From contig CAUJGJ010000378.1 of assembly GCA_963170055.1 (NCBI GenBank), positions 362,501 through 426,500 on the forward strand: a stretch of DNA of 64,000 nt, read 5' to 3'. The notes beneath the pieces are model-generated. The model ran no database searches. It had not been told where the DNA came from and was given only the letters and a program-made list of their open reading frames with translations. Shown piece after piece: positions 10,766 through 58,037 of this stretch; position 1 is the stretch's first letter; the number at the start of each line of letters is the position of its first letter. This stretch comes from Halisarca cf. caerulea. Its lineage: Eukaryota; Porifera; Demospongiae; Chondrillida; Halisarcidae. Position numbers and translations under genes: made by a program.

Positions 10766-11029
10766 GACCAATGTCCATCTTGCTCTACATCAGTCTGTAA
10801 TTTCTATACTGTTATGGATTCTATGCTTTCCTCTTCTTGGTAAATTCTGTACAATGTTAGTAAACATGCATGGTGGTTACCTGCTTGTTTCAAGCATGTA
10901 AATTGCCTGTGGATATCATTTCAGGTAAAATCTTGTTGCAACAGCCATGAAACATGGTTGGAAAGTCAAATCAAGGTTGTAACATGGTTGTTTTGTCCTG
11001 CACACATGGTTGTATTTTTGACCTGGGTA

Positions 11030-11640
11030 GGAACAAGAACATCCTGGGTTGTATGGCATGGTCTGAAACTGAATTGAGATCGATTCAGGATAGAACGGGT
11101 CTGTAGGTAGTCATACAGTTGCTGATGGACAATTTTCTCCAAAACCATGACAACTACAGGCAGCACGGATATATGGGATGGAAATTACATACATCAAAGT
11201 TGGATCAACCTTAATGCACAGGATCCGGAGTTGCATGAGTCATTATCCAAGCTCGCGGTACAGCAGCCCCCCCCCCCCCCGAGGCACTGGTTGAATAAGT
11301 AGGCCAGCCGTGACCCTATTCCCGGGGCTATCAGTCTCAACCATAGCGCACTCAGACTGTCTGTTCCTGACCTCTTGCACACATCGAGTCTACTTAACAT
11401 TGCAAACATGCACTCTTCAGAAATGCCATCAAAGCGGAAGACGCTATCAACATGAGGGATCAGATCAATAGATGTGCATGGCTGGTTATGCACAGTTCCA
11501 ATCAAGTTTGCAAACTGAGAGCTAAATGCATCTACAATGCTCTCACAATCAGTTAGCGTGTCAGTGACCACCTTTACTTCGGTGATTGTTTTTTTGACGC
11601 CACCATGAACTCTAGCAATCTCCTTCCACAACTTCTTGCT
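11030..11640 (-). pseudogene. LINE reverse transcriptase relic, N-terminal half
   Basis: The minus-strand frame includes TDCESIVDAFSSQFANLIGT, then SGTDSLSALWLRLIAPGI with LAYLFNQCL. Next comes the segment equivalent to WK-x-A-x-x-TPVHK, and then LNRSQFSFRPCHTTQDVL. These are the pre-palm and finger blocks (equivalent to GPDGL, LFN and GFR-x-GH-S/T) of Jockey/CR1-like LINEs. A poly-C run at 11269-11280 breaks the frame. It joins 8660-9360 once the TA-flanked element is removed. Confidence 0.75.
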
Positions 11641-13229: not shown

Positions 13230-13234
13230 GTCTT

Positions 13235-13472
13235 TGTGGTGTAATCTATTAACATACCTTTATGTGATGTAATCTTAGCTTCACCTTTATTCCTATAATC
13301 AAGCATGGTGTTACTATTAATAACTATTGTAAGAGTATTTAAGCACTTGCATGTTTGCTATCATTTAGTGTTGTGTAACTTAGTGTTGTTAGCCAGTGTG
13401 GCAGTTAATTAATAGCAATTGTCCAGTGACCAGTGTATCGCTATCACAACGCCGCTACTGAGTTATTGTACA
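13235..13472 (+). repeat. 5' LTR (238 bp)
   Basis: It starts TGTGGTGTAATC and ends TTATTGTACA, so it has the TG...CA ends of LTRs. It should contain the promoter, although no strong TATA box was picked out. Confidence 0.95.
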
Positions 13473-13513: not shown

Positions 13514-16500
13514 ATGGCTAGTTTAAGATTACAGCCTCCAGCATCTTTCAACTTTCAGCAGCCTGATGAATGGCCTAGATGGAAAAGCAGATTCGAACAG
13601 TTTCGAGCAGCATCGGGTCTATCGGGAGAAGCAGAAGAGCGACAAGTCAGTACGCTACTTTATTGCCTCGGTGAGAACGCAGAGGATGTCTTGAATTCCA
13701 CCACAATATCACAAACGGACAGAAAGAAATATGATAAAGTCCTTGAGCAATTTGATACTTTCTTCAAAGTAAGGAGAAATGTAATTTTCGAGCGGGCAAG
13801 ATTTAACATGAGAAAACAGCAGCCAGTCGAATCCGCCGAAGAGTACATCACAACACTCTACAGACTAGCAGAAACGTGCGAGTTTGGTGACCTCAAAGAG
13901 GAGCTTATTCGAGATCGCCTAGTAGTCGGTATTCGGGACACCGTGCTTTCACAGCGACTTCAAATGGAACCAGACCTTACCCTCGAAAAGGCAAAGAAAT
14001 CAATTCGTCAGCGTGACGCAGTACGGGAGCAGCAAGGAATACTCCACAAAACAGATACACCACAGCAAAGCCTCGATGCAATGAGCAAACGCAAACCACA
14101 CCAAACCTCACAGTGGAAACAGGGTGGAAAACCCTCACACTATCGCACTAATAGCAACCCCCAAAAAACATCCGATTCGAAGAAATGTTCACGTTGTGGA
14201 AAAGGGCCACATCCTCGAAGTACCTGCCCTGCAAAGGATGTAACTTGCCATAGGTGCCAGAAGAAAGGGCACTACAGCAGTCAATGTTTCAGCAAACGCG
14301 TTGCTGAAGTGGCAATTCAACAAGAAGGAGATCGCTATCAGCAGGAGGAAGACCTTGACACGGTTTACCTCAACATAATTGGTTCAGGAAACCCCACATC
14401 AAAGTCGTGGAACACCCCCATTAAGGTCAACAAATGCATCATATCCTTCAAGCTAGACACTGGTGCAGAGGTAACAGCCATGACAGAACAGGCTTTCAAT
14501 CAACTCAAAGGAGTCACCTTAAGGAAGCCCACCAAAACAATTTGTGGAGCAGACAGGAAGCCTCTAAAGGTTTTGGGACAAATCAATGTCACCTTATCAG
14601 CAAAAGGGCAAAGCTGTAACCAAGCTGTCTACATTGTCAGAAACCTTTCACAAAATCTATTAGGCCTACCAGCTATCCAAAGCCTCAACCTCTTAGCACA
14701 AGTAGAAGAGGTCACGGGACAACTTGGTGATGTCCCCAATCAATTCCCAAAGCTATTCACAGGATTGGGAACCCTGCAAGGAGACTTCCATATTCATCTA
14801 CAACCAGATGCCACACCTTTCGCCCTTCATACCCCAAGGAATGTCCCTCTACCACTTCGTCAAAAAGTGAAGAAAGAGCTAGAACGAATGGAATCCATGG
14901 GAGTAATCTCAAAGGTTGATGTACCCACACCATGGTGTGCCGGCATGGTAGTGGTTCCAAAGAAAGATGGTTCAGTTCGCATCTGTGTTGATCTAAAGCC
15001 ATTAAATACCGCAGTTCTCAGAGAAGTACACCCCTTGCCGAGAGTCGATGACACCTTAGCACAGCTAACAGGAGCCAAAGTCTTCAGCAAATTAGATGCA
15101 AACAGCGGATTCTGGCAAATACCAGTTGCTGAAGATTCTCGCCTTCTTACCACCTTCATCACCCCTTTTGGCCGCTTTTGCTTCAACAAAATGCCCTTTG
15201 GCATATCCAGTGCTCCAGAACACTTCCAAAGGAGGATGAATGCCATCCTTGATGGACTTCCTGGAGTTCTTTGTCTAATGGACGACATCATTGTGTATGG
15301 TTCAGATAACAATGATCACAACACACATCTCCATGTCACTCTTCAGCGTCTCGAAACAGCTGGAGTCACCCTCAACAAAGCCAAGTGCCAATTTGGGAAA
15401 GATACCATTACTTTCTTGGGTCATGTCATCAGTTCCAAAGGTATCTCTGCAGACCCAACCAAAGTTGCTGCCATTGTCAACATGCCAACCCCTTCCAACG
15501 TCACAGAACTCCGACGCTTTATGGGTATGGTGAACCAACTTGGGAAATTTACATCAGACATTGCAGAACTCTCCAAACCCCTCCGCGAACTACTAAGCAA
15601 GAAATCCACATGGTTGTGGGGACCAAGTCAAGTCTCTGCATTCCAGAAGTTAAAAACAGCCCTGACAACGCCAACAGTCCTTGCTTGGTATAACCCAGCT
15701 GCAGACACAAAACTATCTGCAGATGCTTCAGCCTACGGTTTAGGAGCAGTCCTTTTACAAAAGTCTATTGATGGAGAATGGAAACCCGTAGCATATGCCT
15801 CTAGGTCAATGACAGAGACTGAGATGAGATATGCACAGATCGAAAAAGAAGCCTTAGCCATAACATGGGCATGTGAACGCTTCTCAGATTACATCTTGGG
15901 AAAGAATATCACTATTGAGACAGATCACAAACCCCTTGTTCCACTCCTCAGTACTAAACACTTGGACAGCATACCCCCACGAGTACTACGCTTCAGACTC
16001 CGCCTGATGAGATTCAGCTACAACATTTTACATGTACCAGGGAAATTGCTTTACACTGCCGACACCCTCTCCAGAGCGCCTCAGAGCCATTCAGAAGAGG
16101 ACAAGAGGAAATCTTACAACATAGAGTTCAACCTATCTGCTATCCTCCAACAACTGCCTGCCAATGCCGAGACTCTCGAGAAGTATCTCCAAGCACAGAA
16201 AGAAGATCCTATATGCATGCAGTTATCCAAGTTTTGTATCGATGGATGGCCGGAGCAGCACAATGTCAAAGGACAACTCAAGTGCTATTGGCAAGCCAGA
16301 AGAGACCTCACCCAATGTGAAGGTATATTGCTTTACCGCACACGTGTTGTGGTACCAGAACGCCTGCAGCAGGAAACACTCGACAAGATTCACAAAGGCC
16401 ACCAGGGCATTCATAGATGTCGTCTTCGTGTTTCTGAATCTGTATGGTGGCCAGGAGTCAACAAACAAATGGAAGAATATGTTAAGAAATGCCCAACCTG

Positions 16501-17401
16501 CATGAAGTTGAGCCCTCCAGTACGAGAGCCCATGCTGACCTCCCCATTACCAGACCATCCCTGGGAGAAAGTGGGAACAGATCTATTTGAACTCAACGGA
16601 CAGCACTACCTGATCATGGTGGACTATTATTCCAGATTTCCGGAAGTCATCAAAATGACATCCACCACATCAACATCAGTGATCACCGCCATGAAGTCTA
16701 TCTTTTCCCGCCATGGTATCCCACGAATTCTCATCAGTGACAACGGACCTCAGTACAGCTCAATGGAAATGCAACTCTTTGCCGAAAAGTATGGATTCAA
16801 ACACATCACTAGCAGCCCATATTACCCACAGAGTAATGGGTTAGCTGAACGAACAGTGAAGACAGTGAAACAACTGCTACAGGAGACAGATGACATTTAT
16901 CTAACACTACTGAGCTACCGCACAACACCACTCCCTTGGTGTAGCCTTAGTCCATGTGAACTCCTCATGGGAAGACGTTTGAGGACTGATCTCCCACAAA
17001 CAAAGAAACAGCTCAAACCTAACTGGACCTATCTAAAAGGATTTGCTGACATGGATAGGAAGTACAAACAGCAGCAAAAGGAAAACTATGACAAACGACA
17101 CCGGGTTCGTTCAGTGTCACCACTCCCTGATGACGCCCCAGTCTGGGTAAATACCCAAGGCCAACAAGTTCCGGGACGCATCATCACAACCGCATCTACA
17201 CCTAGATCTTATGTAGTCAATGTTCCCTCAGGACAAGTGAGGAGGAACCGAACTGCTCTGACAGATCGCCATGAACAAGCCACATCAGACTCCAATGCCA
17301 ACAACAACCCAACCGAGCCTCGAGTCACCCGCACACAGACCGGAGTACCTATCCGACCTCCAGATCGCCTCATGTACTGGAGAAAGGGAGATGTGGTGTA
17401 A
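13514..17401 (+). CDS. Ty3/gypsy Gag-Pol polyprotein
   Basis: An intact fused frame of 1295 residues. Gag occupies about 1-220. Two CCHC zinc knuckles lie at about 225-258 (CSRCGKGPHPRSTC and CHRCQKKGHYSSQC). Aspartic protease DTGAEV is at 315-320. In the reverse transcriptase, the finger block includes MVVVPKKDGSVRICVDLKPL, and the catalytic LMDD is near 588. RNase H has LSADASAYGLGAVL near 735. The integrase has an HHCC zinc domain (HKGHQGIHR, then CPTC, about 960-996) followed by the core with its first Asp in GTDLFEL, the second in SDNGPQ and the Glu in GLAERTVK. No chromodomain or env is present. The stop codon lies inside the 3' LTR, so the last residues are LTR-encoded. No stop or frameshift separates gag and pol. 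It resembles K02A2.6-type animal gypsy proteins. Confidence 0.97.
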   Translation: MASLRLQPPASFNFQQPDEWPRWKSRFEQFRAASGLSGEAEERQVSTLLYCLGENAEDVLNSTTISQTDRKKYDKVLEQFDTFFKVRRNVIFERARFNMRKQQPVESAEEYITTLYRLAETCEFGDLKEELIRDRLVVGIRDTVLSQRLQMEPDLTLEKAKKSIRQRDAVREQQGILHKTDTPQQSLDAMSKRKPHQTSQWKQGGKPSHYRTNSNPQKTSDSKKCSRCGKGPHPRSTCPAKDVTCHRCQKKGHYSSQCFSKRVAEVAIQQEGDRYQQEEDLDTVYLNIIGSGNPTSKSWNTPIKVNKCIISFKLDTGAEVTAMTEQAFNQLKGVTLRKPTKTICGADRKPLKVLGQINVTLSAKGQSCNQAVYIVRNLSQNLLGLPAIQSLNLLAQVEEVTGQLGDVPNQFPKLFTGLGTLQGDFHIHLQPDATPFALHTPRNVPLPLRQKVKKELERMESMGVISKVDVPTPWCAGMVVVPKKDGSVRICVDLKPLNTAVLREVHPLPRVDDTLAQLTGAKVFSKLDANSGFWQIPVAEDSRLLTTFITPFGRFCFNKMPFGISSAPEHFQRRMNAILDGLPGVLCLMDDIIVYGSDNNDHNTHLHVTLQRLETAGVTLNKAKCQFGKDTITFLGHVISSKGISADPTKVAAIVNMPTPSNVTELRRFMGMVNQLGKFTSDIAELSKPLRELLSKKSTWLWGPSQVSAFQKLKTALTTPTVLAWYNPAADTKLSADASAYGLGAVLLQKSIDGEWKPVAYASRSMTETEMRYAQIEKEALAITWACERFSDYILGKNITIETDHKPLVPLLSTKHLDSIPPRVLRFRLRLMRFSYNILHVPGKLLYTADTLSRAPQSHSEEDKRKSYNIEFNLSAILQQLPANAETLEKYLQAQKEDPICMQLSKFCIDGWPEQHNVKGQLKCYWQARRDLTQCEGILLYRTRVVVPERLQQETLDKIHKGHQGIHRCRLRVSESVWWPGVNKQMEEYVKKCPTCMKLSPPVREPMLTSPLPDHPWEKVGTDLFELNGQHYLIMVDYYSRFPEVIKMTSTTSTSVITAMKSIFSRHGIPRILISDNGPQYSSMEMQLFAEKYGFKHITSSPYYPQSNGLAERTVKTVKQLLQETDDIYLTLLSYRTTPLPWCSLSPCELLMGRRLRTDLPQTKKQLKPNWTYLKGFADMDRKYKQQQKENYDKRHRVRSVSPLPDDAPVWVNTQGQQVPGRIITTASTPRSYVVNVPSGQVRRNRTALTDRHEQATSDSNANNNPTEPRVTRTQTGVPIRPPDRLMYWRKGDVV
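17381..17391 (+). other. Polypurine tract
   Basis: AGAAAGGGAGA abuts the 3' LTR and is the expected plus-strand primer. It is also translated as the end of Pol. Confidence 0.85.
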
Positions 17402-17629
17402 TCTATTAACATACCTTTATGTGATGTAATCTTAGCTTCACCTTTATTCCTATAATCAAGCATGGTGTTACTATTAATAACTATTGTAAGAGTATTTAAG
17501 CACTTGCATGTTTGCTATCATTTAGTGTTGTGTAACTTAGTGTTGTTAGCCAGTGTGGCAGTTAATTAATAGCAATTGTCCAGTGACCAGTGTATCGCTA
17601 TCACAACGCCGCTACTGAGTTATTGTACA
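17392..17629 (+). repeat. 3' LTR (238 bp)
   Basis: Same length as the 5' LTR and no difference found by eye. It contains the Pol stop codon at 17399-17401. Confidence 0.95.
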
Positions 17630-21745: not shown

Positions 21746-21840
21746 CTCCAGTTGCGACACCATGGTGAGATGTTGATGTAAAGAAGTTCCGAAGGATCAC
21801 TGTAGGATGAAGTGGACTGTAACTCTCTAGTCCATTCAGC
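21742..21840 (-). pseudogene. RTX gene 3'-end fragment (second pseudogene copy)
   Basis: About 95 bases align with the last coding part of the intact gene at 25680-25800. Shared words include ATGGTGAGATGTTGATG, a CCGAAGGATCA block and GGATGAAGTGG. It is read on the minus strand and belongs with 22904-23056 as the wreck of one gene copy. Confidence 0.75.
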
Positions 21841-23056: not shown

Positions 23057-23494
23057 GTAGTATAAATCTCGTACTTTTTTACAACCAATTATTATTGTAT
23101 TGAAAATATTATGTGTTATACAGTTGAACCACATTTACTTAATATAATATATGAAACTGCTTAATATGAAATATTATCTTTTTTATATAAAACATGAAAC
23201 ATTAGCTACGTCCAAGCCCAAGGTTCAATGTACTGTTTACATGATGCACTTTTAAGATGAAAATTCAGCACAGTGCCCAGAGGTTCATGCTAATGAGGTA
23301 CTGCAGTTATGATAGTGTTATCTCCGAGTATCATTATTGTAAGAAGTGGATGATTGTAATATTTTGATTGATCATGACTTTGCAAATTAAGTGATTCAGG
23401 AGAAATTATTTAACTTAGAGATATGCATGATGCTTGGCCTAAAACTGTTTGAAATGATCTCTAGCTGTCTACTTGTGTTCATAGCAGTTTAACT
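23057..23494. other. Non-coding, related to the 3' flank of the intact RTX gene
   Basis: No gene. The last 100 bases share TGGCCTAAAAC and the approach to the stop codon with 25560-25627, so 3' flanking sequence was duplicated with the gene. Confidence 0.5.
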
Positions 23495-24654
23495 TCAGTT
23501 ACATGTAACTTGGACTGGTTGCTGGCTCAAGAATGTATAATTCAAACTGCAGTCAGCTGTCAATATGGTCAGATGATGATGAGCAGTTCCAGCAAAGTAG
23601 TTCTGAAGGAGCACTGTGGGATGAAGTGGGCTGTAACTCTCACAGAAAGAAGCATTGGTAACTGGTGGGTACAGGTTAATGATACTGGGTACAGCATCAT
23701 GGCATCCTGGAAACTGATCAGTTTGGTTGTTCATAAGAAACTTTGACACAATGCAGATAATTGAGTTGGTAGCTTCCAATTTCAAAGCGAAGTTTCTTTG
23801 TTACAGTATTGATGTAGGACAAGTCAACGGTATTCAGCAATTCATCATCAGCTTTATTTACAATTATAACCTTTGTACCGGAGGATTCAAGTAGGTTGTA
23901 CGTATCAGAGCCGTTTCCTCCAATGAATATGTCATAGCCATATAAAGTGTCATTACCTCCTTCTCCATTAAGAACATTATCCATGGATGAGCTTATCATG
24001 ATGTCTTCATATGGGGCTCCATAAATGTTTTCCACATGGTGTATCTCATCAAGACCATGCGGATGTTGACAGATGCTATTGTTGAGGTCCACATAGATGC
24101 CAATTTCATTGACCACATCTCCTGCATACAAGATGATATCATCACCAGGTCCACCATCAATGTAGTTATCACCAGCTCCTGGTGACAAGATATCATTACC
24201 ACATCCACCATCCAAAATGTCATTGCCACTTCCATCACTCAGAATGTCTTTTCCCGGTCCTCCAAAGAGGGTATCATTGCCAGCTCCTCCTTTGAGGATA
24301 TCATTCCCATCTTCACCCAAGAGTACGTCATTAGCATCTCCACCTATAATTGTATTTGGCTTGTCGTTTCCAGTGATGTGGTTAGCTACAGATTTGTAGC
24401 CATAAACAGATCTCACTTCTCCATGTGTTGTATTATCACTGAGACTTATGTTCTGGTGGCTCATGTGAGTGCTATGTTGACTGGCTTTGTTAATGATAAT
24501 AATCACTGGAGTGAACCTGTCCTCAGGCAAAATAATAAAGGTAATGCCATCACTTGAAAGAATTGTGAGATGATGAGCTTTTGGATCGACTACATAGTCA
24601 ACCAGTGTAGCTGAAAATGACTTTAAGTTAGTGGAATCAGAGGGATCTGTGTAC
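23495..24654 (-). pseudogene. RTX gene C-terminal region, frameshifted and truncated (first pseudogene copy)
   Basis: Two minus-strand frames (24654 to 23718, then 23785 to 23495) together match the last third of the intact protein at high identity. They include the RTX array with GGDANDVLLGEDGNDILKGG and the C-terminal FPGCHDAVPS segment. A frameshift near 23785 separates them. One array repeat is altered (SDGSGND for SGGSGND) and there is a small deletion near 23945. Similarity to the intact gene ends abruptly at 24654. The upstream remains are at 25190-25300, with a MITE between. Not functional. Confidence 0.9.
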
Positions 24655-25300: not shown

Positions 25301-25627
25301 CACTTTGTAGAGACTGTATTTCAAATGCCTTAATACATAAACTTTTAAGTACTTATAATACTGGAAACAATAATATCATAATTATTATATGATTATCTTA
25401 TTGAATCAGATTCCGAATTCAAAGTAGACAGCAAATTATAATAGCCATGATAATACAGAGCCACTGAGTGATAAATCAACAATGTCATATCCATAAGATG
25501 TGGATGTATATAGTATTGTAATATAGTGATGACATTGCAATAAAGAAAAATATTGGTAGTAGAGACATGATATACTTGCCATGGCCTAAAACCTGATTAT
25601 CTATTAGACTAATAGCTACGTTTAGCT
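25301..25627. other. 3' flank of the RTX gene
   Basis: No gene. It probably holds the 3' untranslated region. AATAAAG at about 25540-25546 on the plus strand is in the wrong orientation to be the poly(A) signal of this gene. Confidence 0.5.
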
Positions 25628-28600
25628 TCAGTTACATATAACTTGGACTGGTTGCTGGCTCAAAAATGTATAATCCAGACTGCAGTCAGCTGTAACTATG
25701 GTGAGATGTTGATATGCAGTCCCATTAAAGTAGTCCCGAAGGATCAGTGTGGGATGAAGTGGGCTGTAACTCTCACAGAAAGAAGCATTGGCAACAGGTG
25801 GGTACAGGTTAATGAAACTGGGTACAGCATCATGGCATCCTGGAAATTGGTCAGTTTGATTGTTCATAAAAAACTCTGACACAATGCGAACAATCAAGTT
25901 GCTAGTTTCCTGTTCAAAGCGTAGTTTAGTTGTATTGATGTAGGATAAGTCAACAGTATCAAGTAAGCCATCATTAGCTTCATTTATGACAACCTTAGTA
26001 CCAGAGGCTTCAAGGAGATTGTACGTATCAGATCCGTTTCCTCCAATAAGTATGTCATATCCATCATAGGCCATTAATGTATCATTACCTTCTTTTCCTC
26101 GCAGAACATTATCATCCATAAATGAGCTGATCATGGTGTCATTATATGGGGTTCCATAAACATTCTCCACATTGTGTATCTCATCAATGCCATACGGATG
26201 TTGACAAATACCTTTGTTGAGGTCCACATAGATGCCAGTTTCATTGACTGGGTCACCTGCATACATAATGATATCATCACCAGGTCCACCATCAATGTAG
26301 TTATCACCAGCTCCTGGTGATAAGATGTCATTGCCATATCCACCATACAGAATGTCATTGCCACTTCCACCACTCAGAATGTCTTTTCCCGGTCCTCCAA
26401 AGAGGGTATCATTGCCAGCTCCTCCTTTGAGGATATCATTCCCATCTTCACCCAAGAGTACATCATTAGCATCTCCTCCGACAATTGTATTTGGCTTTTC
26501 GTTTCCAGTGATGTGGTTAGCTACAGACCTGTAACCATAAACTGATCTCACTTCTCCATGTGTTGTATTATCACTGAGACTTATGTTCTGGTGGCTCATG
26601 TGAGTGCTATGTTGACTGGCTTTGTTAATGATAATAATCACTGGAGTGAACCTGTCCTCAGGCGATATAATAAAGGTAATGCCATCACTTGAAAGAATTG
26701 TGAGATGACGAGCTTTCGGATCAACTACATAGTCAACCAGTGTAGCTGAAAATGACTTTGTGGCATCAGAGGGATCTGTGTACCGCAATGTAACTGACCT
26801 TGTATCGTTAGTGACCGAAATTTGAGTGTAGTTTGCTCCAAAGAGGACTGTATCAGCAACATTATCATTTGCAACATTTTGAATAGTAATTTGCCCATAT
26901 CCAGGCTTCAAGACATAGGTATCACTACCATTGTTGCCTCTTATGGTACCTCCACCCTCTCTGGGATCAATGTAGTTGTCCATGTCATTGCCTGTGATGA
27001 CATCTGAATGTGGAGAGCCAATGACACGTTTAACCTTCTGAAACATTGCATCCGTCAGATCAATTGTCATGGGCTGCACCGCTTTGGACTTGTCAATCAT
27101 TACTGCCACAGGAGATTGAGTACTTGAAGATGTTAAAGGAAGGGTGAATGCTACACCATCTTTAGAGCGGACCAGAAGATGCTGGTCTCTTGTTCCATCA
27201 AACCAACGGAACAAGACTACCCTAATTTTGGAGGATGAGCTGTCTGTGATATTCAGATTCGGTCCAGCAGCATTTATGTTGATGTTGTCGAAATATGCAT
27301 CAAACAAAAGCAAATCAGTTTTGCCATCATTAGCACTATTTATAATCACACAATGTGCTTCCGGTGCAGGGCTACTATCACGTCCATTTGGAGATGGGAC
27401 CTTCACAACATAGGTGTCCGCACCTTGTTTACCTGCTATGATATCATAACCTCCTCCCCCTGCCATGTAGTTGTCAAGGTCATTTCCCACAATGGTGTCA
27501 TCTTCATGTGTTCCTACTACTGAGGTAACCTGCCTCAAGATTGTGCTAGAGTCAAGGTTAATACTTGTATCCAGAGATGTCAACTCTTTCAAAATTGGGA
27601 TCAGTCTCACCTCACTGGTGTGTGGATTATGGTGAATTTCCAAGAATATGCGGTCCTGTGAATACAAGGTGACATGTTGGTATGTCTTGCCCAGAAACCA
27701 CTTCTTTATTGTCAATGTATAGCTGCCTGATTGGATAATCAAGTCAATGTTGGATGGAGATTTACTTGCATTGATAAACTGAGCATTTGCTGGGAAAATT
27801 ATTGTGTCCAATTTTTCATCTGAAGCCCCATTATCTATTTCATCATTAAATTCTGTAGCTTCATTCTGTATGTTGTATGTATCTGATCCATTCCTACCAT
27901 TCATGTAGTCACTTCCCTTACCAGGAATGATGACATCATCATTATTATAGCCAAACAAAAAGTCAGTGTGATCAGAACCAATCACTTGTTTCACTTTTGG
28001 ATAATCTTGCATTAAAGGACTAGGATCGAACCATACAGAATACTCACTTCCAGCTCCACTGAGAGCATAGGGAACTCCTATTACCTGATTTGACTGTCTT
28101 TTGATATGAAAGAGTACGTAATCTGATGTTTTGAAGTTCAAGTGGCGGTAGGCAGAACCACTGAACCAAGACTGAATGGTAACTTTGAAAGAGGATCCAG
28201 CTGTCATGATGACATCATTTCTGGATGATGAGAATGAAAGGTTTTGATATCTCTTAGGAATGATCATAAAGTCTTCTGTCTCTTGACTATCATAATTGTT
28301 AAGGGTAACATGGGTGGAGTCACCATCGAGAAAGTAGGTGTCTGCTCCCGCATTGCCTTCAACATAGGTGTGCTGTGGTCCAAAATAAAAGGAATCATTT
28401 CCACCATTTCCCTTCACTATGTAGTGATAGTCTGCTAGTCCATATGGTAGATTATTTGGCAATTTCTGAACAGCAAAGAAGTTATTGTTGTCACTGTTTC
28501 CATAGTATTCACCATGCAGTGTCAATCGGTCACCCTGCAAACCAGATATAATTTTCCTCTCATCAACTGGTATAACCCAAAACACTTTAACAGATTGTTT

Positions 28601-31600
28601 CTTGAAGTTGATTTTGTTGGACTCACCGATTCCCATAATAATATCAGTAACTTTTACTTCAAAAATGATAGTTTCAGAATGGTTCCTTACTTGTCCATTT
28701 GTGAGGGTACTCGTCATGGTCAACTCACCCCTTCTTCCTCCTTCTAAGAGTTGGAAATTGATATTTCCTCCATTCCAAGAGTCAGCAGCACCAGCAAAGT
28801 TGATTGCAGGAGCACTTCCATTGCACACAGTGACCTTGAAGTAGTTGTGATAGTCAGCAATTTGTCTCAAAAACTGTTGATTTTCTTGGTATTGTTTCTC
28901 TAATTTTTCAACCTTAAAAGGGGCTGAATATATACCTCCAGTAAGAGTGTCTGCTATGTCGAGAATGGCTTCACCAATACCTTTAAGTACAGCCACAACT
29001 TCCTGTCCAGTGCTAGCATCAGGAGGGAGGGAGTCCAGTTCCTTCTTGATATCAGTGTAGAAACTGTCTATTCCTAAACGTATGATGGTTAACGCAATAA
29101 CAAATGGTTCAGCTTCTGGTCCCAGCAATCCCAGAACTGTGATGAGAGCATCAAGTCCAGCATCAACATAACCAATGACAGTGTGTTGTTGGAGGTCCTC
29201 GTATATGCTGTATATACCAAATGCAGTTCCAACTATCGGAATGTCTTTAAATACCTCTCCAACTTTTCCCACCATGGATAGAAGCTTAGATCCCTCTCCA
29301 GCAATCAGTTTACCAGCATCTTCCCCAACTACTTGACCAATCGTTTCACTGACTCTGCCAATTGCTCTGCTAGCAAGCTTTCCCACAGCTTTCCCGGCTG
29401 CCTTGTATATCTTTTGATTCAATCCACTCAATTCCCCTAGTCCATGGAGGGTTTGAGCCAAGTTGATTGTACCATGCCAGATGTCTCCCCTTTCAAAAGC
29501 TTCAACTGTTCCTTTGATACCCAAGACTGTCCCATAGATGCCCAAACCTTTATTGATCCTCCCCGCAGCTCCTTCCCCTTCTTGTTTTAGACTTTGAGCT
29601 TGTTCATACATTTCATCCATTAGATCCTTTGAAGTCATTTTGGATTCATCAAAATCAGTTTCTACATTTTGACGAGATGAAGGATTAGATGGTTCATAGA
29701 TTTCATAGGTAACTTTCCCTTCTCGGACTGCAATGGAATCTTCATTTACCTCGTACTTTTTCCCAGCAGCAGCTTCTTGTGCTTCTACTGCTTCGGCAAT
29801 CTCCTTGCTGAGATAAAGCTGGTCTCTCAGCATAGCATGTGATGCTTGCAGTGGTGGGCTAAGATCTTCTGCTTCACGATAATCATTAACTTCATTGTTG
29901 ACTGACTCCATCTGTGGCTCCTCTACTTCTCTAGCGTCATAAGGCCCCACAAATAGTGGTCCTGCTACAGCTCTATTGGTTTCAATAAATGTTGAACCTG
30001 TATTATAATCACTTGTCATCACTTCTTTAAGACTCTCCTCAAATTCGTGAATTAAATTCTGCCGTTTTAAAGGAATTCTTGCTTCAACTGATGCACTACC
30101 AGCCCGACGCTTTTGGACCCTTCGAGCACTATCCTTGTAGCCAACATCTACCCATTGCTGAAGGAGTGAACCAATCAGTTTTTTTGTTGACCTCACCTTG
30201 TAGTTTTTTTTTGGTTTGCCCTTTTCTGACTCGTAGAAGTCTATTCTATTTCCATGTTCTCTGGCAGGGCCATCTTCACTATGTTTTATAGGATGACTTC
30301 TAAAGAATGCATTTCTATCAAACATTGGAAAATGTGCATTTAAATCCAAACTAAGTCTATTGGTAACATGAACTCTGTAGTCACGAATTGCTTCATATGT
30401 AAACATGGCAATAGTGGTTTCCCCATTTATGGCATTGGCTCTGTCTGTTTCTATCTCTGAGTGTTCACCACCCATCCACTTACGAGCATCAGGGAAAAAA
30501 TTTTCATCTGTTTGAGGCTGCAGTAGAGCATAGGAATGACCAAACGTATATTGGTTCAAATCCAGGTCAGTGTTTTTAGTTGCTCCTTCATTTGGATTTT
30601 CACTTACAATGACTCCTTCTAGAGTTGTATGGAATGGTTCAAGTTCTTTGGATGATTTCTTCACCTGCAAATCAGACTTAACTTTTACACTGTATACAAA
30701 GTCACCATAGCGATAGTATATGTACTCATCTGCAAATGGCGCTCCAGTGGTATCTGTATTTGTCCAAGTTTTGGTATCCATGTCATAAGAAGGATACTCA
30801 AATCCCTTTTCTCCCCAATGTTGAATTTCTTGTGTTAATTCAGCATAGTTACTAAATTCTCTAATTTTTATCGTCTTGTCTTTGGCAACTCCTTGATCAA
30901 GTACTCTAACAAGTCGTTCTTTCTCAACGTGATTATCCCAATTGAGTCTTAGACTATTAGATTCTGAAACTGTTCGGAAGTGGTCTATGGCAACAAAACT
31001 TATGACATCAAAGAGATCACTATTGCTCAGCTTGACATGTCTAGGATTAGCCGCTTCTCCAGTGTCTTCCAGTTCTATACTGCCCCCAGTGGGCTTGAAA
31101 TTTTCCGGTGAAGCACCAAGGCTGGTATATGTTTGTGAATCAATTTCCTGGGCAATTTTTTCTTGAATGCGATGAGCATTACCAGCATCATCAAGACTAA
31201 TGACTGTTTTTTCGACAGTTCCTGGTTCAGGCCTCCACACTGTGCCGTCATTTGTTTGTTCTCCATACAATTTTCTCCCACTGGAGTCAACTTGCACTAT
31301 CACATTACGTGAGCTTACCTCATCTGCAATCTCCTTCATATCTTGTAGTAATTCTTCTGGGAATCTATCACCAAAAAATTCTTTTTCATCAGGGGTTAAT
31401 AAACCTACTTCACAACCAACTAAACTGATACGCTTGATAGCACCTCTTATATGTATAGCATCACGAAGGAGGGATTTGAGAGCTAAAGATAGCTGTGAAG
31501 CATCCATTCTACCCATTTTAACTGTATTTGTTGCTTCATTCACATATCCGTGGCCTAGTACCTGTATACGTCCACCATGAGGAAGATCATCAATTGGTAC

Positions 31601-31888
31601 AAATCTCGGAGGTATGCCTATTTTTTTATTCCGAAATCCCTCAAATTTTCCATTTGGATTTATGATACTTTCTACTAAGAGAAACTGACCTCCTCTTGAA
31701 GGGTCATTATTATCATTTGGTACCCACTTCACCAATTGTGAATTCTGAGGGTTTTTCTTGAATAGGTGGTATCCAGCACTATCTACTCCATACTCATCCT
31801 CAAGAATAGCAATGATTTGTCCACTGTATGGAGAAGATAGTGCCATTGATGAGAACAGAAATTGAATCATCCATTGCCAATACTGCAT
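25628..31888 (-). CDS. Giant secreted C80-protease-like / RTX-repeat toxin-like protein
   Basis: A single uninterrupted exon of 2086 residues from ATG 31888. The open frame runs further upstream, but without an ATG and past a splice acceptor. Residues 1-22 look like a signal peptide (MIQFLFSSMAL core). A C80-like cysteine protease unit follows: His113 in LGHGY and Cys159 in SLVGCEVG, 46 apart, close to the spacing in clostridial large toxins. A dibasic QKRRAG lies in the middle. At about 780-1100, Gly/Ala-rich and then hydrophobic segments (GLDALITVLGLLG, EPFVIALTIIRLG, about 880-950) resemble a TcdA/TcdB-type pore or translocation region. The C-terminal half has five copies of a WF-x-G-x4-HL...S-x-D motif alternating with GSDTY-type repeats. 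A canonical RTX array (GNDILKGGAGND type) lies at about 1795-1875. Bacterial relatives bind calcium and attack membranes. The function here is unknown, and transfer from bacteria is inferred. Confidence 0.85.
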   Translation of the reverse strand: MQYWQWMIQFLFSSMALSSPYSGQIIAILEDEYGVDSAGYHLFKKNPQNSQLVKWVPNDNNDPSRGGQFLLVESIINPNGKFEGFRNKKIGIPPRFVPIDDLPHGGRIQVLGHGYVNEATNTVKMGRMDASQLSLALKSLLRDAIHIRGAIKRISLVGCEVGLLTPDEKEFFGDRFPEELLQDMKEIADEVSSRNVIVQVDSSGRKLYGEQTNDGTVWRPEPGTVEKTVISLDDAGNAHRIQEKIAQEIDSQTYTSLGASPENFKPTGGSIELEDTGEAANPRHVKLSNSDLFDVISFVAIDHFRTVSESNSLRLNWDNHVEKERLVRVLDQGVAKDKTIKIREFSNYAELTQEIQHWGEKGFEYPSYDMDTKTWTNTDTTGAPFADEYIYYRYGDFVYSVKVKSDLQVKKSSKELEPFHTTLEGVIVSENPNEGATKNTDLDLNQYTFGHSYALLQPQTDENFFPDARKWMGGEHSEIETDRANAINGETTIAMFTYEAIRDYRVHVTNRLSLDLNAHFPMFDRNAFFRSHPIKHSEDGPAREHGNRIDFYESEKGKPKKNYKVRSTKKLIGSLLQQWVDVGYKDSARRVQKRRAGSASVEARIPLKRQNLIHEFEESLKEVMTSDYNTGSTFIETNRAVAGPLFVGPYDAREVEEPQMESVNNEVNDYREAEDLSPPLQASHAMLRDQLYLSKEIAEAVEAQEAAAGKKYEVNEDSIAVREGKVTYEIYEPSNPSSRQNVETDFDESKMTSKDLMDEMYEQAQSLKQEGEGAAGRINKGLGIYGTVLGIKGTVEAFERGDIWHGTINLAQTLHGLGELSGLNQKIYKAAGKAVGKLASRAIGRVSETIGQVVGEDAGKLIAGEGSKLLSMVGKVGEVFKDIPIVGTAFGIYSIYEDLQQHTVIGYVDAGLDALITVLGLLGPEAEPFVIALTIIRLGIDSFYTDIKKELDSLPPDASTGQEVVAVLKGIGEAILDIADTLTGGIYSAPFKVEKLEKQYQENQQFLRQIADYHNYFKVTVCNGSAPAINFAGAADSWNGGNINFQLLEGGRRGELTMTSTLTNGQVRNHSETIIFEVKVTDIIMGIGESNKINFKKQSVKVFWVIPVDERKIISGLQGDRLTLHGEYYGNSDNNNFFAVQKLPNNLPYGLADYHYIVKGNGGNDSFYFGPQHTYVEGNAGADTYFLDGDSTHVTLNNYDSQETEDFMIIPKRYQNLSFSSSRNDVIMTAGSSFKVTIQSWFSGSAYRHLNFKTSDYVLFHIKRQSNQVIGVPYALSGAGSEYSVWFDPSPLMQDYPKVKQVIGSDHTDFLFGYNNDDVIIPGKGSDYMNGRNGSDTYNIQNEATEFNDEIDNGASDEKLDTIIFPANAQFINASKSPSNIDLIIQSGSYTLTIKKWFLGKTYQHVTLYSQDRIFLEIHHNPHTSEVRLIPILKELTSLDTSINLDSSTILRQVTSVVGTHEDDTIVGNDLDNYMAGGGGYDIIAGKQGADTYVVKVPSPNGRDSSPAPEAHCVIINSANDGKTDLLLFDAYFDNININAAGPNLNITDSSSSKIRVVLFRWFDGTRDQHLLVRSKDGVAFTLPLTSSSTQSPVAVMIDKSKAVQPMTIDLTDAMFQKVKRVIGSPHSDVITGNDMDNYIDPREGGGTIRGNNGSDTYVLKPGYGQITIQNVANDNVADTVLFGANYTQISVTNDTRSVTLRYTDPSDATKSFSATLVDYVVDPKARHLTILSSDGITFIISPEDRFTPVIIIINKASQHSTHMSHQNISLSDNTTHGEVRSVYGYRSVANHITGNEKPNTIVGGDANDVLLGEDGNDILKGGAGNDTLFGGPGKDILSGGSGNDILYGGYGNDILSPGAGDNYIDGGPGDDIIMYAGDPVNETGIYVDLNKGICQHPYGIDEIHNVENVYGTPYNDTMISSFMDDNVLRGKEGNDTLMAYDGYDILIGGNGSDTYNLLEASGTKVVINEANDGLLDTVDLSYINTTKLRFEQETSNLIVRIVSEFFMNNQTDQFPGCHDAVPSFINLYPPVANASFCESYSPLHPTLILRDYFNGTAYQHLTIVTADCSLDYTFLSQQPVQVICN

Positions 31889-31904
31889 GATTGGAAGGTT
31901 CAAA

Positions 31905-31918
31905 TCTGTAAAGGAAAC
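31905..31918 (-). other. Probable 3' splice site upstream of the RTX start codon
   Basis: On the minus strand the sequence is GTTTCCTTTACAG, followed 17 bases later by the ATG at 31888. This is a good pyrimidine tract plus AG, so the start codon probably lies just inside a second exon after a 5' untranslated exon. It explains why the open frame upstream of 31888 should not be counted as protein. Confidence 0.6.
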
Positions 31919-32065
31919 ATATATAGCAATGATATTATGAGGTGCATGCAAAACATTTGAAAAATTAATGATAATAAGTTGTATAGAATTGATGGCAAGA
32001 CTGCATGAGCAACAAGTAATTCGAATTAAAAATCCGGGGATCTGCCGCCTCACACGCTTAAATTA

Positions 32066-37719: not shown

Positions 37720-40700
37720 TTACAGTACTTCTGAAAATACCACATTGTCTGTATAGCATCCTTCATGTCCATCAAAACACGAATTTTTGGCCAAAATTTT
37801 CATGTTTTCTGGGTTTCTGACTCGACTGAGTGCCACATACAATTGACCATGCGAGAAAAATGGCCGATCAAGATTTATTCCGCATGCCGACAGGCTTTGT
37901 CCCTGACTTTTGTTGCAAGTTATGCCAAAAGCCAGCCGAATGGGAAATTGCTTTCTCTGCATCTGAAACGGGAATACGTCATTATCTCCTAGCACAAAAG
38001 GAATCCTCGGAATGATGAGAAATTGGCCTGTATGAGGTCCTGTAGCTACGACAGCTTCAATGACATTATCGTGAAGTGCCCGAATTGCATATCTGCATCC
38101 ATTCACATGACCGTCATGAGGGCAAAGATTCCTGATTAGCATCACACTGGCATGCTTCTTAAGATGGAGCACATGCGGAGGAAATCCTGATGGAGTGAGG
38201 CTGTTGATGAATTCCAAAGGGTACTGATGTTCATTCTCCAGAACCTTGTCCCTGCTCTTGTAATCTCTGGCCTCTCCTGGGAATTTGTTAATCATGACAT
38301 CATTAACTTCATCAACAGCACTGTTGGTGGGACATATGATTGCTCTTGAGCACAGCCAAGCTGGATTGGTGAAGTTGTGCTCTAAACGCTGAAAGACAAA
38401 TTGGCAAAGGTCTTCCAAGTTTTCTGAGTCCATCATGAGGGCATCAGGTAAGCGAACCTTGCAAGGCCCCAGATCCTTCACAATGTCCAACTTCCCATCC
38501 CCTACCTTCAAGAGAAACTCTGCAAATGAAGCACTTTCTCCTGAGCTGTTCTTGACTCTCATGTTTTCCAACAGCTCCAGCTTCTCAACTGCATCCCAGA
38601 TTGGAGAGTGCTTCAAGCAGGCTTCCACGATCTGTGGTCTACTTGCATGTCGGATCACAGGAAGGATCTGCCTCCAGTCTCCTGCAAAGAGCACTGTCAA
38701 TCCACCAAACAGGGCATCATTGTCTCTGATATCCCTCATGGTCCTGTCAACTGCCTCGAAAATGTGACGATGTCCCATTGTCACTTCATCAATGACCAAT
38801 AACTTTGCCTTCCTCAGCAGCTCAGACAGTGCTTCTCTCTTGGTGATGCTGCACATACTGGTCTCCTGAATCTTGATGGGCATTTTACACCTACTATGCA
38901 GCGTTCTCCCATTTTCGAGCAATGTTGCTGCAATCCCTGATAAGGCTGTCCCCAGTGCAATACCACCTTGGGCTCGCACTGCTGCTAGTAGAAGGTTAAT
39001 AGTGTAGGTCTTGCCGCTGCCACCACAGGCATTCAGGCAGAATACTTTCCCCCTGGAATTATTGACGGAATCCATGACAATGTCAAATACATGCTGCTGT
39101 TGCTCATTGAGTGTCCTACACTCCTCTGTGACCTTCGCCTGTAGGTAGGATGTGTCATAGTTTGTCTCCTCCTCAATAATCTTAGGTGTGGTGTTTTGCA
39201 AAGAGGTCATGGGCTGTGGCTTGGGCAAGCCGAAGTCCTCATGCACATCCAGCCCCTGTCGTTCTAGGCTGTCCTGCAGTGACAGCAGGACTTCATTGAT
39301 GATGGCTTCAGTTGGATTAGACACTTTGTTACGGTGCATCAGGTCTGTGCACAGGGCCACTTTGTGGGTCTCCCAAAATTGCACTGGATTGGCTGGTCTG
39401 CAGTAAAGGAGAATTGTCACGAAAGTGTTCCTCAATGTAGGCCCAAACCGAATTGAGGCAGCTTCCTCCATGGTTTTGTCCACCTCCCTGTCATCCTCCA
39501 ACAGACCCAACTGCTGGCAGGCCTCTTGAAAAGTCCCACAAACGTGGCCATTCACAGTCCTAAGGTCCTCGAAGCTCAGAGCTCCTGCCTTGTTGTGCAG
39601 CAACATCCTCAAGTAGTATAGCTCAGCCTGATGTGGGTTAAGTGTGATTGATGGAATTCGGCCCAGCATATCTCCCATGTACTCATTTGTGGCTTCATTG
39701 TAGACTCCTCTCTTACGCCTCTGCCACTTCTTGTCTTTTAAATTCCAAGTAAAAAAACGGGGGAAGTCTGGGTACAGAATGAGCCTTGCAGAAGGGTCTT
39801 GCACATTTGTATCAAAGTAGGCAGTCAGCTTGGTGACTGGTGGTCCCTGCTGTAGTACTTGCTCCACTTGATGCTCTTCAAATAGCACTTGCTGCTGGTT
39901 GGGGAGGTGGCATGGCAGTTTCTCCACAGGCGGGTACTTCTCATGGATGGGGAACCCATAGATCTTCCAGAGTGCCTCACTTGCAGAAATGTAGCGTGCA
40001 TTTATGTAGTTTTCCACTTCGTCCTCCAAATGGGTATTCTCCACATCCCTGACACTCATGATAATCCTATCTTGGCCTTTTGTGATATACTTGTACAGGT
40101 ACTTCACCGCTTTCACTGAGTAGACTACCTCCACATTGATGTGTGCCTTGTACCGCAGTGACAGCAGTGGATTGTATGGGACAACAAAGGAGTTGTCCAC
40201 AGTGACATCTTCCCCTTTGTTCCTCTTAACAACAGTCCTGCCACCATTGTTGGGTGAGCGTCGACGGTACTGAGGGTAGGAGTCATCTGTGACTACAGTA
40301 GTGGTGTGGCAAGGCTTAGGAAAGTCCTTGGTGCAGTGGCGGTCCTGCCCTCTTCCCTCCATGCATGGACTGTTGGTGTTGATGTGGCCACATGGCCCAT
40401 GAATGTTGTTGGAAGTAACAACTCCATGCAGCCTGGGGTTGATAGCAGGGTCCAGGATTTCTGCACTCACTACTGTGTCAATCTTCTCTGGTGTCTTTGG
40501 CTTATCCTGATCTTCCATGATCAGGAGGATGTGGGCATGCGTCAGTCCCCTCTTCTGCCATTCAATGGTGACAGTGTGTGCCTTGACCTTTCCCAGCACA
40601 TTCTTCTTCAGTAGGTCATTCATCAGAGAGTCATACTTCAACTTGAACACCCGACATGCCAGATCTGGACGATCATGGGGTACTTCTCCAGGGAACAAAG

Positions 40701-42393
40701 ACTCTTGAATCTCAGGCCATTTGGGGTTGGTGGTGAAGGTAATGAAGTAGTCAGGTTTCCCGAACTTCCTGACTATGGTCATGGCATCCATGAAGGCCTC
40801 TGAATAAAACCTTGGCGACCCATATATGGTAGGTGGCAGGATTACCTTTCTCCCTACATTCACCATCTCACCTTCCCTGAGAGCATCATACAGACCCTGG
40901 TATTTCTCGGCTCGTATGGTCTTCTGGTTACTCTTCACCCACTGCATCCTTGATGACTCAATCTTTGTCCACTGATCCACGGCATACTGTTGCATTAGGC
41001 GCCGACTTTTCATGATGATGTTGAAATCATCCTCCCTGACTTGCAGACGATGAGAGTAGAAATCTAGTGCTGACAGTGTGCGGTTGTCAGTCCTCTTGAG
41101 CCCCAATTGCCAGCCATCTGTTCCCTCAGGGAACAGAAGCACATAGTGGAGAGGATCATACGACCTATGGATTGCATTGATTCGCTGGAGTGCCCCGTCC
41201 CGACAGTGAATGATGATATCCAAATTGGAGTGGCTCTCCCCAGGTAACAGTGCTGCCACTTCTGATTGCACTGGTAGGTTATATCTACGACAGTGCTCAT
41301 TTGTGGGCTTCATTTTTTTGTTGGCATGCAGAACAATGTTGACATTCTCTACACAATCAATTTCAATTGCTCCCTTGAACGACTGTATATATGAGTTATT
41401 TGCATGCAACATATCCTGCAATTGGCCAAGAATGTCTGGATCAAGGTGACTGAGATGTGACAACCTATTGGCCAACTCATTGTTGCTGTCATAGAAAAAC
41501 AGCTGGGCAAACTTTGGTGCCTGGTTCTCAACGGGAAGGAGTGATCCTATCCGGTGGAACATCTTTCCCTGGATCTTGAAGTTAGGACTAAATCCTGGCA
41601 TGCAAACCTCGTTACAGCCTAGAGATGCAAGAGCTAATGCATTGTTGTATGCCCTGATGTGATCTAAGAACATGCTTCCCGAACGACTGACATCAAACAA
41701 TGCTATCATTTCACTTGGTGGCTGATGTAGAGGGTATAACATGATCTTCCCTCCACCACAACACAATGATTTTCGCTCTTGTACCCAACGATATGCTTTA
41801 CAATGTGGACAGCATGGTGAATTAAATAGACTATCACAGTAGTGGGATTGCATGGATTCAGGGACACCTGCCTCCTCAAAGGAAAATGGGTCACTTATGT
41901 ACCCCACACTACATCTATTCTGATCCCTTATTCTCTTGGATGCAGAACTCCTTGAGAAATAGGCTCTCTTGCGTCTTGTGCTTCTTGCCACATAATTATG
42001 ACCCACTTGGTGTACTGCACCACTGCTTACCTGAATACTTTCCTCAGTACCCTCCAAAATACCTGACTCCTGGTTATTCCCTTGAGCTGACTCCTGGTTA
42101 TTCCCTTGAGCTGACTCCTGGTTATTTCCTTGAGCTGACTCCTGGTTATTCTCTTGAGCTGACTCCTGGTTATTCTCTTGAGCTGACTCCTGGTTGTTCC
42201 CTTGAGCTGCATCTGAAGGAGGTGACTGGACCATAACAATGTGTGCTTGGTCGGGATGGGTTGGCTCCAGATGATCGCCGGTTGAGTATTGGTCTTCTAG
42301 CAATGGAAGTTGCTGATGGCTCCTAAGAGTTCTTATCCTCGCTGAACCTCTTAATTTCTTTGAGAGTTTGGTGTTCCGCTTCACTTTCGGCAT
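37720..42393 (-). CDS. Helitron Rep-helicase (replication initiator fused to PIF1-like helicase)
   Basis: An intact frame of 1557 residues from ATG 42393. Residues 63-110 are six copies of an 8-residue repeat (AQGNNQES or AQENNQES). A Cys-rich finger (CCPHC...CC) is at about 194-212. The Rep domain has FGKPDYFITFTTNPKWPEI near 550, the HUH-type metal site RGLTHAHILL near 615 and the catalytic-tyrosine block YLYKYITKGQD near 765. The C-terminal PIF1-type helicase has Walker A CGGSGKT near 1125, Walker B LLVIDEV near 1200, GDWRQILPV, and the closing TCNKSQGQSL and VALSRVRNP motifs near 1490-1530. The enzyme nicks, unwinds and transfers one strand during rolling-circle transposition. The fusion of Rep and helicase is standard. 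No RPA-like or OTU domain was seen. All catalytic motifs look intact. Confidence 0.97.
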   Translation of the reverse strand: MPKVKRNTKLSKKLRGSARIRTLRSHQQLPLLEDQYSTGDHLEPTHPDQAHIVMVQSPPSDAAQGNNQESAQENNQESAQENNQESAQGNNQESAQGNNQESAQGNNQESGILEGTEESIQVSSGAVHQVGHNYVARSTRRKRAYFSRSSASKRIRDQNRCSVGYISDPFSFEEAGVPESMQSHYCDSLFNSPCCPHCKAYRWVQERKSLCCGGGKIMLYPLHQPPSEMIALFDVSRSGSMFLDHIRAYNNALALASLGCNEVCMPGFSPNFKIQGKMFHRIGSLLPVENQAPKFAQLFFYDSNNELANRLSHLSHLDPDILGQLQDMLHANNSYIQSFKGAIEIDCVENVNIVLHANKKMKPTNEHCRRYNLPVQSEVAALLPGESHSNLDIIIHCRDGALQRINAIHRSYDPLHYVLLFPEGTDGWQLGLKRTDNRTLSALDFYSHRLQVREDDFNIIMKSRRLMQQYAVDQWTKIESSRMQWVKSNQKTIRAEKYQGLYDALREGEMVNVGRKVILPPTIYGSPRFYSEAFMDAMTIVRKFGKPDYFITFTTNPKWPEIQESLFPGEVPHDRPDLACRVFKLKYDSLMNDLLKKNVLGKVKAHTVTIEWQKRGLTHAHILLIMEDQDKPKTPEKIDTVVSAEILDPAINPRLHGVVTSNNIHGPCGHINTNSPCMEGRGQDRHCTKDFPKPCHTTTVVTDDSYPQYRRRSPNNGGRTVVKRNKGEDVTVDNSFVVPYNPLLSLRYKAHINVEVVYSVKAVKYLYKYITKGQDRIIMSVRDVENTHLEDEVENYINARYISASEALWKIYGFPIHEKYPPVEKLPCHLPNQQQVLFEEHQVEQVLQQGPPVTKLTAYFDTNVQDPSARLILYPDFPRFFTWNLKDKKWQRRKRGVYNEATNEYMGDMLGRIPSITLNPHQAELYYLRMLLHNKAGALSFEDLRTVNGHVCGTFQEACQQLGLLEDDREVDKTMEEAASIRFGPTLRNTFVTILLYCRPANPVQFWETHKVALCTDLMHRNKVSNPTEAIINEVLLSLQDSLERQGLDVHEDFGLPKPQPMTSLQNTTPKIIEEETNYDTSYLQAKVTEECRTLNEQQQHVFDIVMDSVNNSRGKVFCLNACGGSGKTYTINLLLAAVRAQGGIALGTALSGIAATLLENGRTLHSRCKMPIKIQETSMCSITKREALSELLRKAKLLVIDEVTMGHRHIFEAVDRTMRDIRDNDALFGGLTVLFAGDWRQILPVIRHASRPQIVEACLKHSPIWDAVEKLELLENMRVKNSSGESASFAEFLLKVGDGKLDIVKDLGPCKVRLPDALMMDSENLEDLCQFVFQRLEHNFTNPAWLCSRAIICPTNSAVDEVNDVMINKFPGEARDYKSRDKVLENEHQYPLEFINSLTPSGFPPHVLHLKKHASVMLIRNLCPHDGHVNGCRYAIRALHDNVIEAVVATGPHTGQFLIIPRIPFVLGDNDVFPFQMQRKQFPIRLAFGITCNKSQGQSLSACGINLDRPFFSHGQLYVALSRVRNPENMKILAKNSCFDGHEGCYTDNVVFSEVL

Positions 42394-42864
42394 ATTCAAA
42401 TTTTGCTCGCCAATGCAGCGCGCTATAACACGTCAGCACATTATTGCGCAATCGTCAACCCGGATATCTTGACGCCCACACTTTCGCCATCTATTCGCTT
42501 TCTTTATTCCAAATGGGCACTTTCCGCTATATAGTTTATGTCACCCACAGACTTCTACTTCGAGCTAAAACGATAGCGAAAACGCCGTCGCACCATCCCC
42601 CCAGGAGAAGTTTGCGTACAACCGAATCTCCTGGAAAGTCCGTAATCTACTTCGCTTTCGTCCGTAAAACAAAGATGGCGGCTCGTAAAAAAAGTATGGG
42701 AAAATGTGGGAAAAGCTTCATTTCGCAAGGAAACGATTGATTAACCCGTCAATTACACCCTCCAGATAGCGCTTGGAAATTTAAACCGCGTCCGCTGCGA
42801 ATCCTCCGGTCGGTTTCGGAGATTAGTGCGGGCAAAAAATCGGCCTAGCTCCATTATAATAAGA
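42394..42864 (-). promoter_or_regulatory. Helitron 5' end and leader
   Basis: A 470-bp CpG-rich leader between the TC terminus and the Rep-helicase ATG. It should hold the promoter. AAGATGGCGGC at 42672-42682 (plus-strand reading) equals the core of YY1 binding sites. No TATA box was chosen. Confidence 0.5.
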
Positions 42865-58019: not shown

Positions 58020-58037
58020 TATAATAAGAGAAGGTAC

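Follow-up and report, generated by a model that had tools for sequence, protein, structure and literature searches.

A predicted C80 protease and RTX repeat protein family of animals, found at a sponge locus and in sharks, bony fish and amphibians

The stretch analysed here, hereafter the window, comprises 64,000 nucleotides (positions 362,501 to 426,500 of the forward strand) of contig CAUJGJ010000378.1 (C352) from the sponge Halisarca cf. caerulea (assembly GCA_963170055.1; 194,469,755 bases in 454 contigs). On its minus strand, at 25628-31888, a preliminary description made from the letters alone had placed a single-frame gene for a giant protein with a bacterial-toxin-like architecture. 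This gene is real and uninterrupted: the frame is open from 25628 to 32053 and lies in a stop-free stretch of 2144 codons, and the methionine at 31888 begins a protein of 2086 residues. Two Pfam families were recovered in it, Peptidase_C80 with 62.9 bits (cut-off 23.8) and HemolysinCabind with 83.5 bits over six stretches (cut-off 23), and no other family rose above its cut-off. Both domains had been anticipated, as had the GHG and GC motifs 46 residues apart, which contain His113 and Cys159, the intact His/Cys pair of the protease. The absence of a known effector domain was likewise borne out, since the C80 domain begins at residue 20 and no glucosyltransferase family matched. An Rfam scan of the window gave no match.

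C80-type autoproteases are known as parts of bacterial weapons; in bacterial toxins, inositol hexakisphosphate (InsP6) of the host cytosol switches the domain on, and N-terminal cargo is released. A protein search with the window sequence drew in 42 relatives, namely 36 ENA entries (many on megabase-size contigs, some on short ones), two jgi and two lgn entries, a protein of the newt Lissotriton helveticus and one of the bacterium Acanthopleuribacter pedis. A second search, seeded with a newt-like relative, returned 82 proteins, 46 of them with vertebrate names. Among solved structures, a profile of 32 family members best matched MARTX protease domains (3eeb, E 2.1e-19), with toxin B (3pa8) weaker at E 3e-7. 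When 20 members were tested against Pfam at E up to 1, Peptidase_C80 was matched in 17 and HemolysinCabind in all. In an alignment of 102 proteins the His and Cys are both kept in 86 of the 94 that have the C80 region. Within these 86, with gaps set aside, positions 45, 107, 194, 206 and 227 carry basic residues in 98-100% of the rows, and Trp218 is conserved in 94%. Such positions, read from the alignment and not mapped residue by residue onto a solved domain, are what an anion (InsP6) pocket would need. The C80 domain is the first domain of the sponge copies, directly after a signal-peptide-like start. Most of the vertebrate members checked have a further stretch of about 50 to 300 residues ahead of it, which could be cargo or a pro-region; the bichir model, with 9, may be truncated.

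The remainder of the protein is less readily assigned. The preliminary description had proposed a translocation-like region, and a hydrophobic stretch is indeed present around residues 903-982, where 19-residue Kyte-Doolittle means peak at 1.4-1.8; the label 'pore-like' did not find a family match to go with it. TcdA_TcdB_pore, the domain that had been named, went undetected in the window protein and 20 members (E up to 1) and in the sponge genome (E up to 10), with 14 control genomes likewise silent. A solved-structure search of the core region yielded five matches, the best at E 0.049, to a ribosomal protein and PDCD10, none of them credible. The RTX part found its best solved matches in the RTX regions of CyaA and the serralysins, and also matched S-layer and adhesion proteins. 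As for the proposed signal peptide, the start does look secretory, weakly so in the window copy (best 11-residue hydrophobicity mean 1.65) and more strongly in many paralogues (about 2 to 3). This hydrophobic start suggests a route through the endoplasmic reticulum (ER), type 1 secretion being implausible in an animal. Hydrophobic C-terminal tails that may resemble membrane or lipid anchors were seen in 11 of 28 rows of the teleost group (for example P0071, P0074 and P0075) and in 2 of 20 other rows; they are absent from all 25 amphibian-to-shark rows and all 28 rows of the clade that holds the window protein.

The window gene is one of many. A genome search with its protein gave 26 matches, of which 13 span residues 1-2085/2086 without a stop, and one additional full-span copy carries two stops. 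The C80 model gave 30 matches, all over the cut-off and 27 without a stop in the matched stretch, and none in the 14 control genomes; the counts of 26 and 30 are lower bounds. Very long open frames among the genome matches (up to 10851 residues) were put down to gaps or withheld sequence, a 3-kb sample beside the longest being all N. The copies are partly clustered, with many on the 942-kb contig C352 and several matches each on C4, C40 and C118, and the family is expanded in this sponge. We estimated the ratio of nonsynonymous to synonymous change (dN/dS) by simple Nei-Gojobori counts for the 78 pairs of the 13 intact copies, with a precision limited by gene conversion between copies and by the crudeness of the method. 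The whole-protein median is 0.33, and the window copy against the 12 other intact copies gives 0.27-0.40; values below 1 indicate that selection acts on the protein, so that the family copies are under purifying selection. By region, the medians are 0.59 for C80 (single pairs reach 1.14), 0.42 for the middle, 0.24 for the core, 0.23 for residues 1011-1160 (67 of the 78 pairs usable) and 0.27 for RTX; in one segment or more at least one pair lacks silent change, and the median there is slightly low for it. The protease end, apart from its catalytic and basic positions, is hence the fastest-changing part, and the core and RTX regions are held.

Features of the C80-RTX gene and its partial copy in the window (positions in the window; dN/dS, ratio of nonsynonymous to synonymous change)
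Feature	Position	Strand	Remarks
Whole coding sequence, single open frame, 2086 residues	25628..31888	-	the genome has 12 more full-length copies without interruption
Signal-peptide-like start, residues 1-18	31835..31888	-	end judged by eye; weakly hydrophobic in this copy, more clearly so in many paralogues and vertebrate relatives
Peptidase_C80 domain, residues 20-206	31271..31831	-	Pfam PF11713, E 5.5e-17
Catalytic His113 codon (predicted)	31550..31552	-	His and Cys both kept in 86/94 proteins with the region
Catalytic Cys159 codon (predicted)	31412..31414	-	His and Cys both kept in 86/94 proteins with the region
Middle region without known domain, residues 207-770	29579..31270	-	no Pfam match; median dN/dS 0.42 for 211-770
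Conserved hydrophobic core, residues 771-1010, candidate membrane-active	28859..29578	-	hydrophobic peaks; median dN/dS 0.24; common to A. pedis
Conserved region after core, residues 1011-1160	28409..28858	-	many invariant columns; median dN/dS 0.23
RTX calcium-binding region (predicted), residues 1161-2086	25631..28408	-	HemolysinCabind, six stretches, E 8.9e-24
Tandem copy of the gene's 3' part, truncated and frame-shifted, separate from the gene	23487..24654	-	87.9% nucleotide identity to 25620-26783; protein match in two frames

The same architecture was found in newts, frogs, Latimeria, sharks, bichir, sturgeon and many teleosts; one horn-shark protein is called si:dkey-211g8.8, in zebrafish style. 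The names given to the 82 relatives include no amniote, an absence that is not proof, as about 8000 candidates were scored per search, and a viral scan gave no relative. Trees were computed with FastTree for all 102 sequences and with IQ-TREE under a mixture model for 31 of them. Both recover one clade of sharks, coelacanth, bichir and amphibians and a separate clade of teleosts and sturgeon (each 100/100 in IQ-TREE), and both place the window protein among invertebrate-side sequences. The split between newts and frogs is the expected one. The bichir groups with the coelacanth or has no resolved position, and support is weak on some inner branches. The teleost clade represents either a second gene or a rapidly evolving one. 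Judged from sequence comparison, then, this is an ancient animal family reaching from sponge to shark, fish and amphibian, with a mostly intact predicted dyad and RTX repeats. It is not described as such in the openly licensed PMC literature and may be in print elsewhere. The preliminary description had seen a transferred and domesticated gene, which implies a local event and does not accord with relatives in sharks, coelacanth, bony fish and amphibians. Given these relatives and the largely species-like tree within the shark-to-amphibian clade, any transfer must be very old.

A protein of related composition has been reported from nurse-shark plasma: Seq34341, uncharacterised, with peptidase C80 and RTX-related (COG2931) domains (PMC9207270). 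In the portion of that report available, it belongs to a set of ten proteins that are uncharacterised in every cartilaginous fish searched and show no significant mammalian homology, and it stands outside the four of the ten with homologues reported in other lineages at the paper's cut-offs.

Two departures from the common plan were noted among the relatives. P0098, P0099 and P0101 form a side branch without the C80 dyad and with Sushi domains (PF00084, precomputed annotation), and P0041, the newt gene model LOC144806458, opens with a LINE-1 reverse-transcriptase-like piece and is probably a fused gene prediction.

The surroundings of the gene in the window include mobile elements, and the animal transposons of the preliminary description, a gypsy element and reverse-transcriptase pieces nearby, proved real. 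The gypsy-type element (13514-17401, plus strand) has one long frame with zinc knuckle, protease, reverse transcriptase, RNase H and integrase; it is flanked by identical 238-bp repeats at 13235-13472 and 17392-17629 and was therefore probably inserted recently. A Helitron on the minus strand (37720-42399) has an open Rep/helicase frame of 1559 residues, with a 24-bp tandem array inside at 42063-42209. Large segmental or LINE-derived duplications (LINE, long interspersed nuclear element), about 75-90% identical and in several copies, occupy 7322-13231 and 51006-58035. At 5717-6253 and 61534-62004 (minus strand), two small proteins that are related and look secreted, each with one C2 domain (E 2.5e-12 and 1.1e-9), lie within a duplicated stretch of 73.7% identity. 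Tiny protein-level matches to the window gene at 58597-58731 and 21762-21827 (46 and 22 residues) are perhaps remnants of other copies.

The genome at large is eukaryotic, as indicated by its Gypsy, Helitron and reverse-transcriptase sequences together with cysteine-protease matches that are split into exon-like pieces. Its mitochondrial contig, C454, has a cox1 with seven in-frame TGA codons, TGA being read as tryptophan, and an ATP-synt_C (atp9) gene at 15431-15619; trnS(uga) and trnC lie in the interval from cox1 to a nad1-like frame, nad1 having been assigned by reading the translation. A mitochondrial atp9 presumably marks sponges among animals, so that the genome reads as that of an animal, very probably a sponge and most likely a demosponge. 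No silicatein motif was seen among the best Peptidase_C1 candidates listed, a negative that carries little weight.

The only non-animal relative found is that of Acanthopleuribacter pedis. A profile of 28 animal members aligned with its protein over 1425 columns (hhalign probability 100, E 3.3e-97), and its His and Cys are aligned, with no variation at either position across the 29 aligned rows; by Pfam alone a C80 domain is not called in it. The neighbours of the A. pedis gene resemble ordinary bacterial genes, including RibD and transporter parts, and its third-position guanine-plus-cytosine content is 0.66 versus 0.72-0.82 in three neighbours. Among GTDB species genomes, a pattern scan confirmed with a piece of the A. 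pedis protein pointed to this species only. A search seeded with the A. pedis protein, over 8000 scored candidates, returned that protein alone; the animal relatives escaped it as well, so that it is no proof for other bacteria. The preliminary description had called for a phylogeny, and a largely species-like order came out within the shark-to-amphibian clade, the placement of the bacterium differing between trees: beside the teleost group in FastTree (support 0.87), and on the invertebrate side, unresolved, on a very long branch (1.71) in IQ-TREE. The direction of transfer is hence undecided, and A. pedis may either preserve the last known trace of a donor or have received the gene from an animal. 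In the part of PMC13018210 that bears on it, a toxin domain of A. pedis from bacterial teneurin-like proteins is in use, and animal teneurins are thought to derive from that family; this tells us only that A. pedis carries other toxin-like genes.

We tentatively favor, as a real possibility, that this ancient animal family consists of secreted, calcium-folded proteins, possibly defence effectors, whose protease would be gated by InsP6 inside target cells. The producing animal cell must shield the protein from its own InsP6, for which passage through the ER would serve: on entering the ER, the protease would be kept from the cytosolic InsP6 of the producing cell. Outside the cell, calcium would fold the RTX tail, and the hydrophobic core might insert into or disturb the membrane of a target cell, be it a microbe, a parasite or a neighbour. 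Should the N-terminal protease reach a eukaryotic cytosol, InsP6 would switch it on, leading to self-cleavage or to the cutting of targets. We infer pore formation, gating and defence, the most likely role being humoral or surface defence. Consistent with this proposal are the C80 and RTX scores above cut-off, the closeness of the C80 domain to MARTX, the dyad kept in 86 of 94 proteins and the kept basic positions, the 46 vertebrate names among 82 relatives, the signal-peptide-like starts, the many and partly clustered copies, the C80 dN/dS of 0.59 versus 0.24 in the core and 0.27 in RTX, and the C80 and RTX protein of shark plasma, as far as it is described in PMC9207270. A fuller version seems to us doubtful: sponges, amphibians and the animals between them would produce a defence protein of their own that resembles a large toxin, is secreted, folds in calcium and inserts into membranes, and its N-terminal protease would take cytosolic InsP6 as the sign of entry into a eukaryotic cell, the ER protecting its maker and the mammal lineage having lost it.

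Several observations weigh against the InsP6-gated effector. The dyad is lost or not alignable in eight of the 94 proteins with the region (P0029, with Cys to Ser; P0030, P0066, P0069 and P0098-P0101, the latter poorly aligned there), and in the 102-protein alignment nothing in the A. pedis protein aligns with the GRK stretch that contains Lys206. The sponge copy has nothing but the start N-terminal to its protease, which makes toxin-style effector release impossible in the usual way, and the hydrophobic core of the window protein and the 20 members is without a pore-family match. N-glycosylation sequons show no enrichment, and in some vertebrates their number falls below expectation. Further, Seq34341, which is tied to the family by domain names and shark relatives and not by sequence, is missing from the 13 proteins that responded most repeatably to immunisation in the portion of PMC9207270 available, and so lends the defence role no support.

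That last point would sit well with a structural or adhesive protein of matrix, mucus or egg coat, in which RTX forms a calcium-stiffened rod and the sole task of C80, during secretion, is to mature the protein or to link it to its own kind. A large, repeat-rich, secreted-looking protein whose pore-like function is only a candidate fits this picture, as do the RTX matches to S-layer and adhesion proteins and the hydrophobic tails of the 11 teleost-group rows, possibly anchors. It is a serious alternative, which we nevertheless consider unlikely: the hydrophobic core is under strong constraint as well as the RTX part, and a C80 and RTX protein in shark plasma, on what is given of it in PMC9207270, better fits a soluble humoral protein. 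The protein might instead be secreted as a protease and act on extracellular targets in trans, without entering cells, the fast change of C80 reflecting shifting substrates or inhibitors. The first-domain position of C80 in the sponge copies, the mostly kept dyad and the rate of C80, the highest of any domain, all agree with this; known C80 domains, however, need InsP6, a cytosolic ligand, and the basic positions are kept. We regard such an activity as quite unlikely, though it too is a serious alternative. Bacterial-type domains, a single open frame and one full-length bacterial relative could finally suggest a recent bacterial transfer into this animal, or bacterial contamination of the assembly. 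This is extremely improbable: vertebrate relatives follow a largely species-like tree, and among 396 genomes sampled evenly across the phylum of A. pedis a profile search found the gene in one, A. pedis itself. Contamination, a caveat of the preliminary description, is excluded by the many copies on long contigs and the vertebrate relatives; recent transfer is refuted, and an old one, at the root of the animals or earlier, may still have taken place.

Whichever role applies, a C80 autoprotease appears to be an old, mostly intact and conserved part of animal genomes, vertebrates included, and as Xenopus and fish carry the family laboratory animals are at hand in which its function is testable. 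As a defence effector it would represent an unknown arm of animal humoral immunity; as a structural protein, a toxin architecture put to new use. With no amniote named among the relatives and a single bacterial relative found, origin and loss become a sharp question.

Among known systems, the MARTX C80 domains share with the family a Pfam C80 match above cut-off and the His/Cys pair, and are its closest solved structures by profile. They lie behind effectors, whereas the C80 of the family is N-terminal behind a signal-peptide-like start and animal-encoded, with a putative InsP6 activation. Membership of the window protein in MARTX was rejected, as no effectors precede the protease. Large clostridial toxins present the same order of protease, long middle region, hydrophobic core and C-terminal repeats; the family differs from them in lacking a glucosyltransferase and a TcdA_TcdB_pore match, in having RTX instead of the toxins' own repeats and in its weaker C80 match to toxin B. 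Membership was rejected here too, in view of the missing pore match and glucosyltransferase and of a C80 domain that starts at residue 20. With RTX secreted proteins of the COG2931 kind the window protein shares the nonapeptide repeats, but those proteins use type 1 secretion, whereas its signal-peptide-like start implies an ER route. Animal aerolysin-like proteins such as the biomphalysins have domains unrelated to the window family and no protease. The likeness lies in bacterial-toxin-type gene families being kept in animals, as the accessible part of PMC8047071 relates for them. Also comparable are the vertebrate 'Peptidase C80 domain-containing' proteins and nurse-shark Seq34341, which combine C80 and RTX as the sponge protein does, most of the vertebrate proteins checked differing from it in the length that precedes C80.

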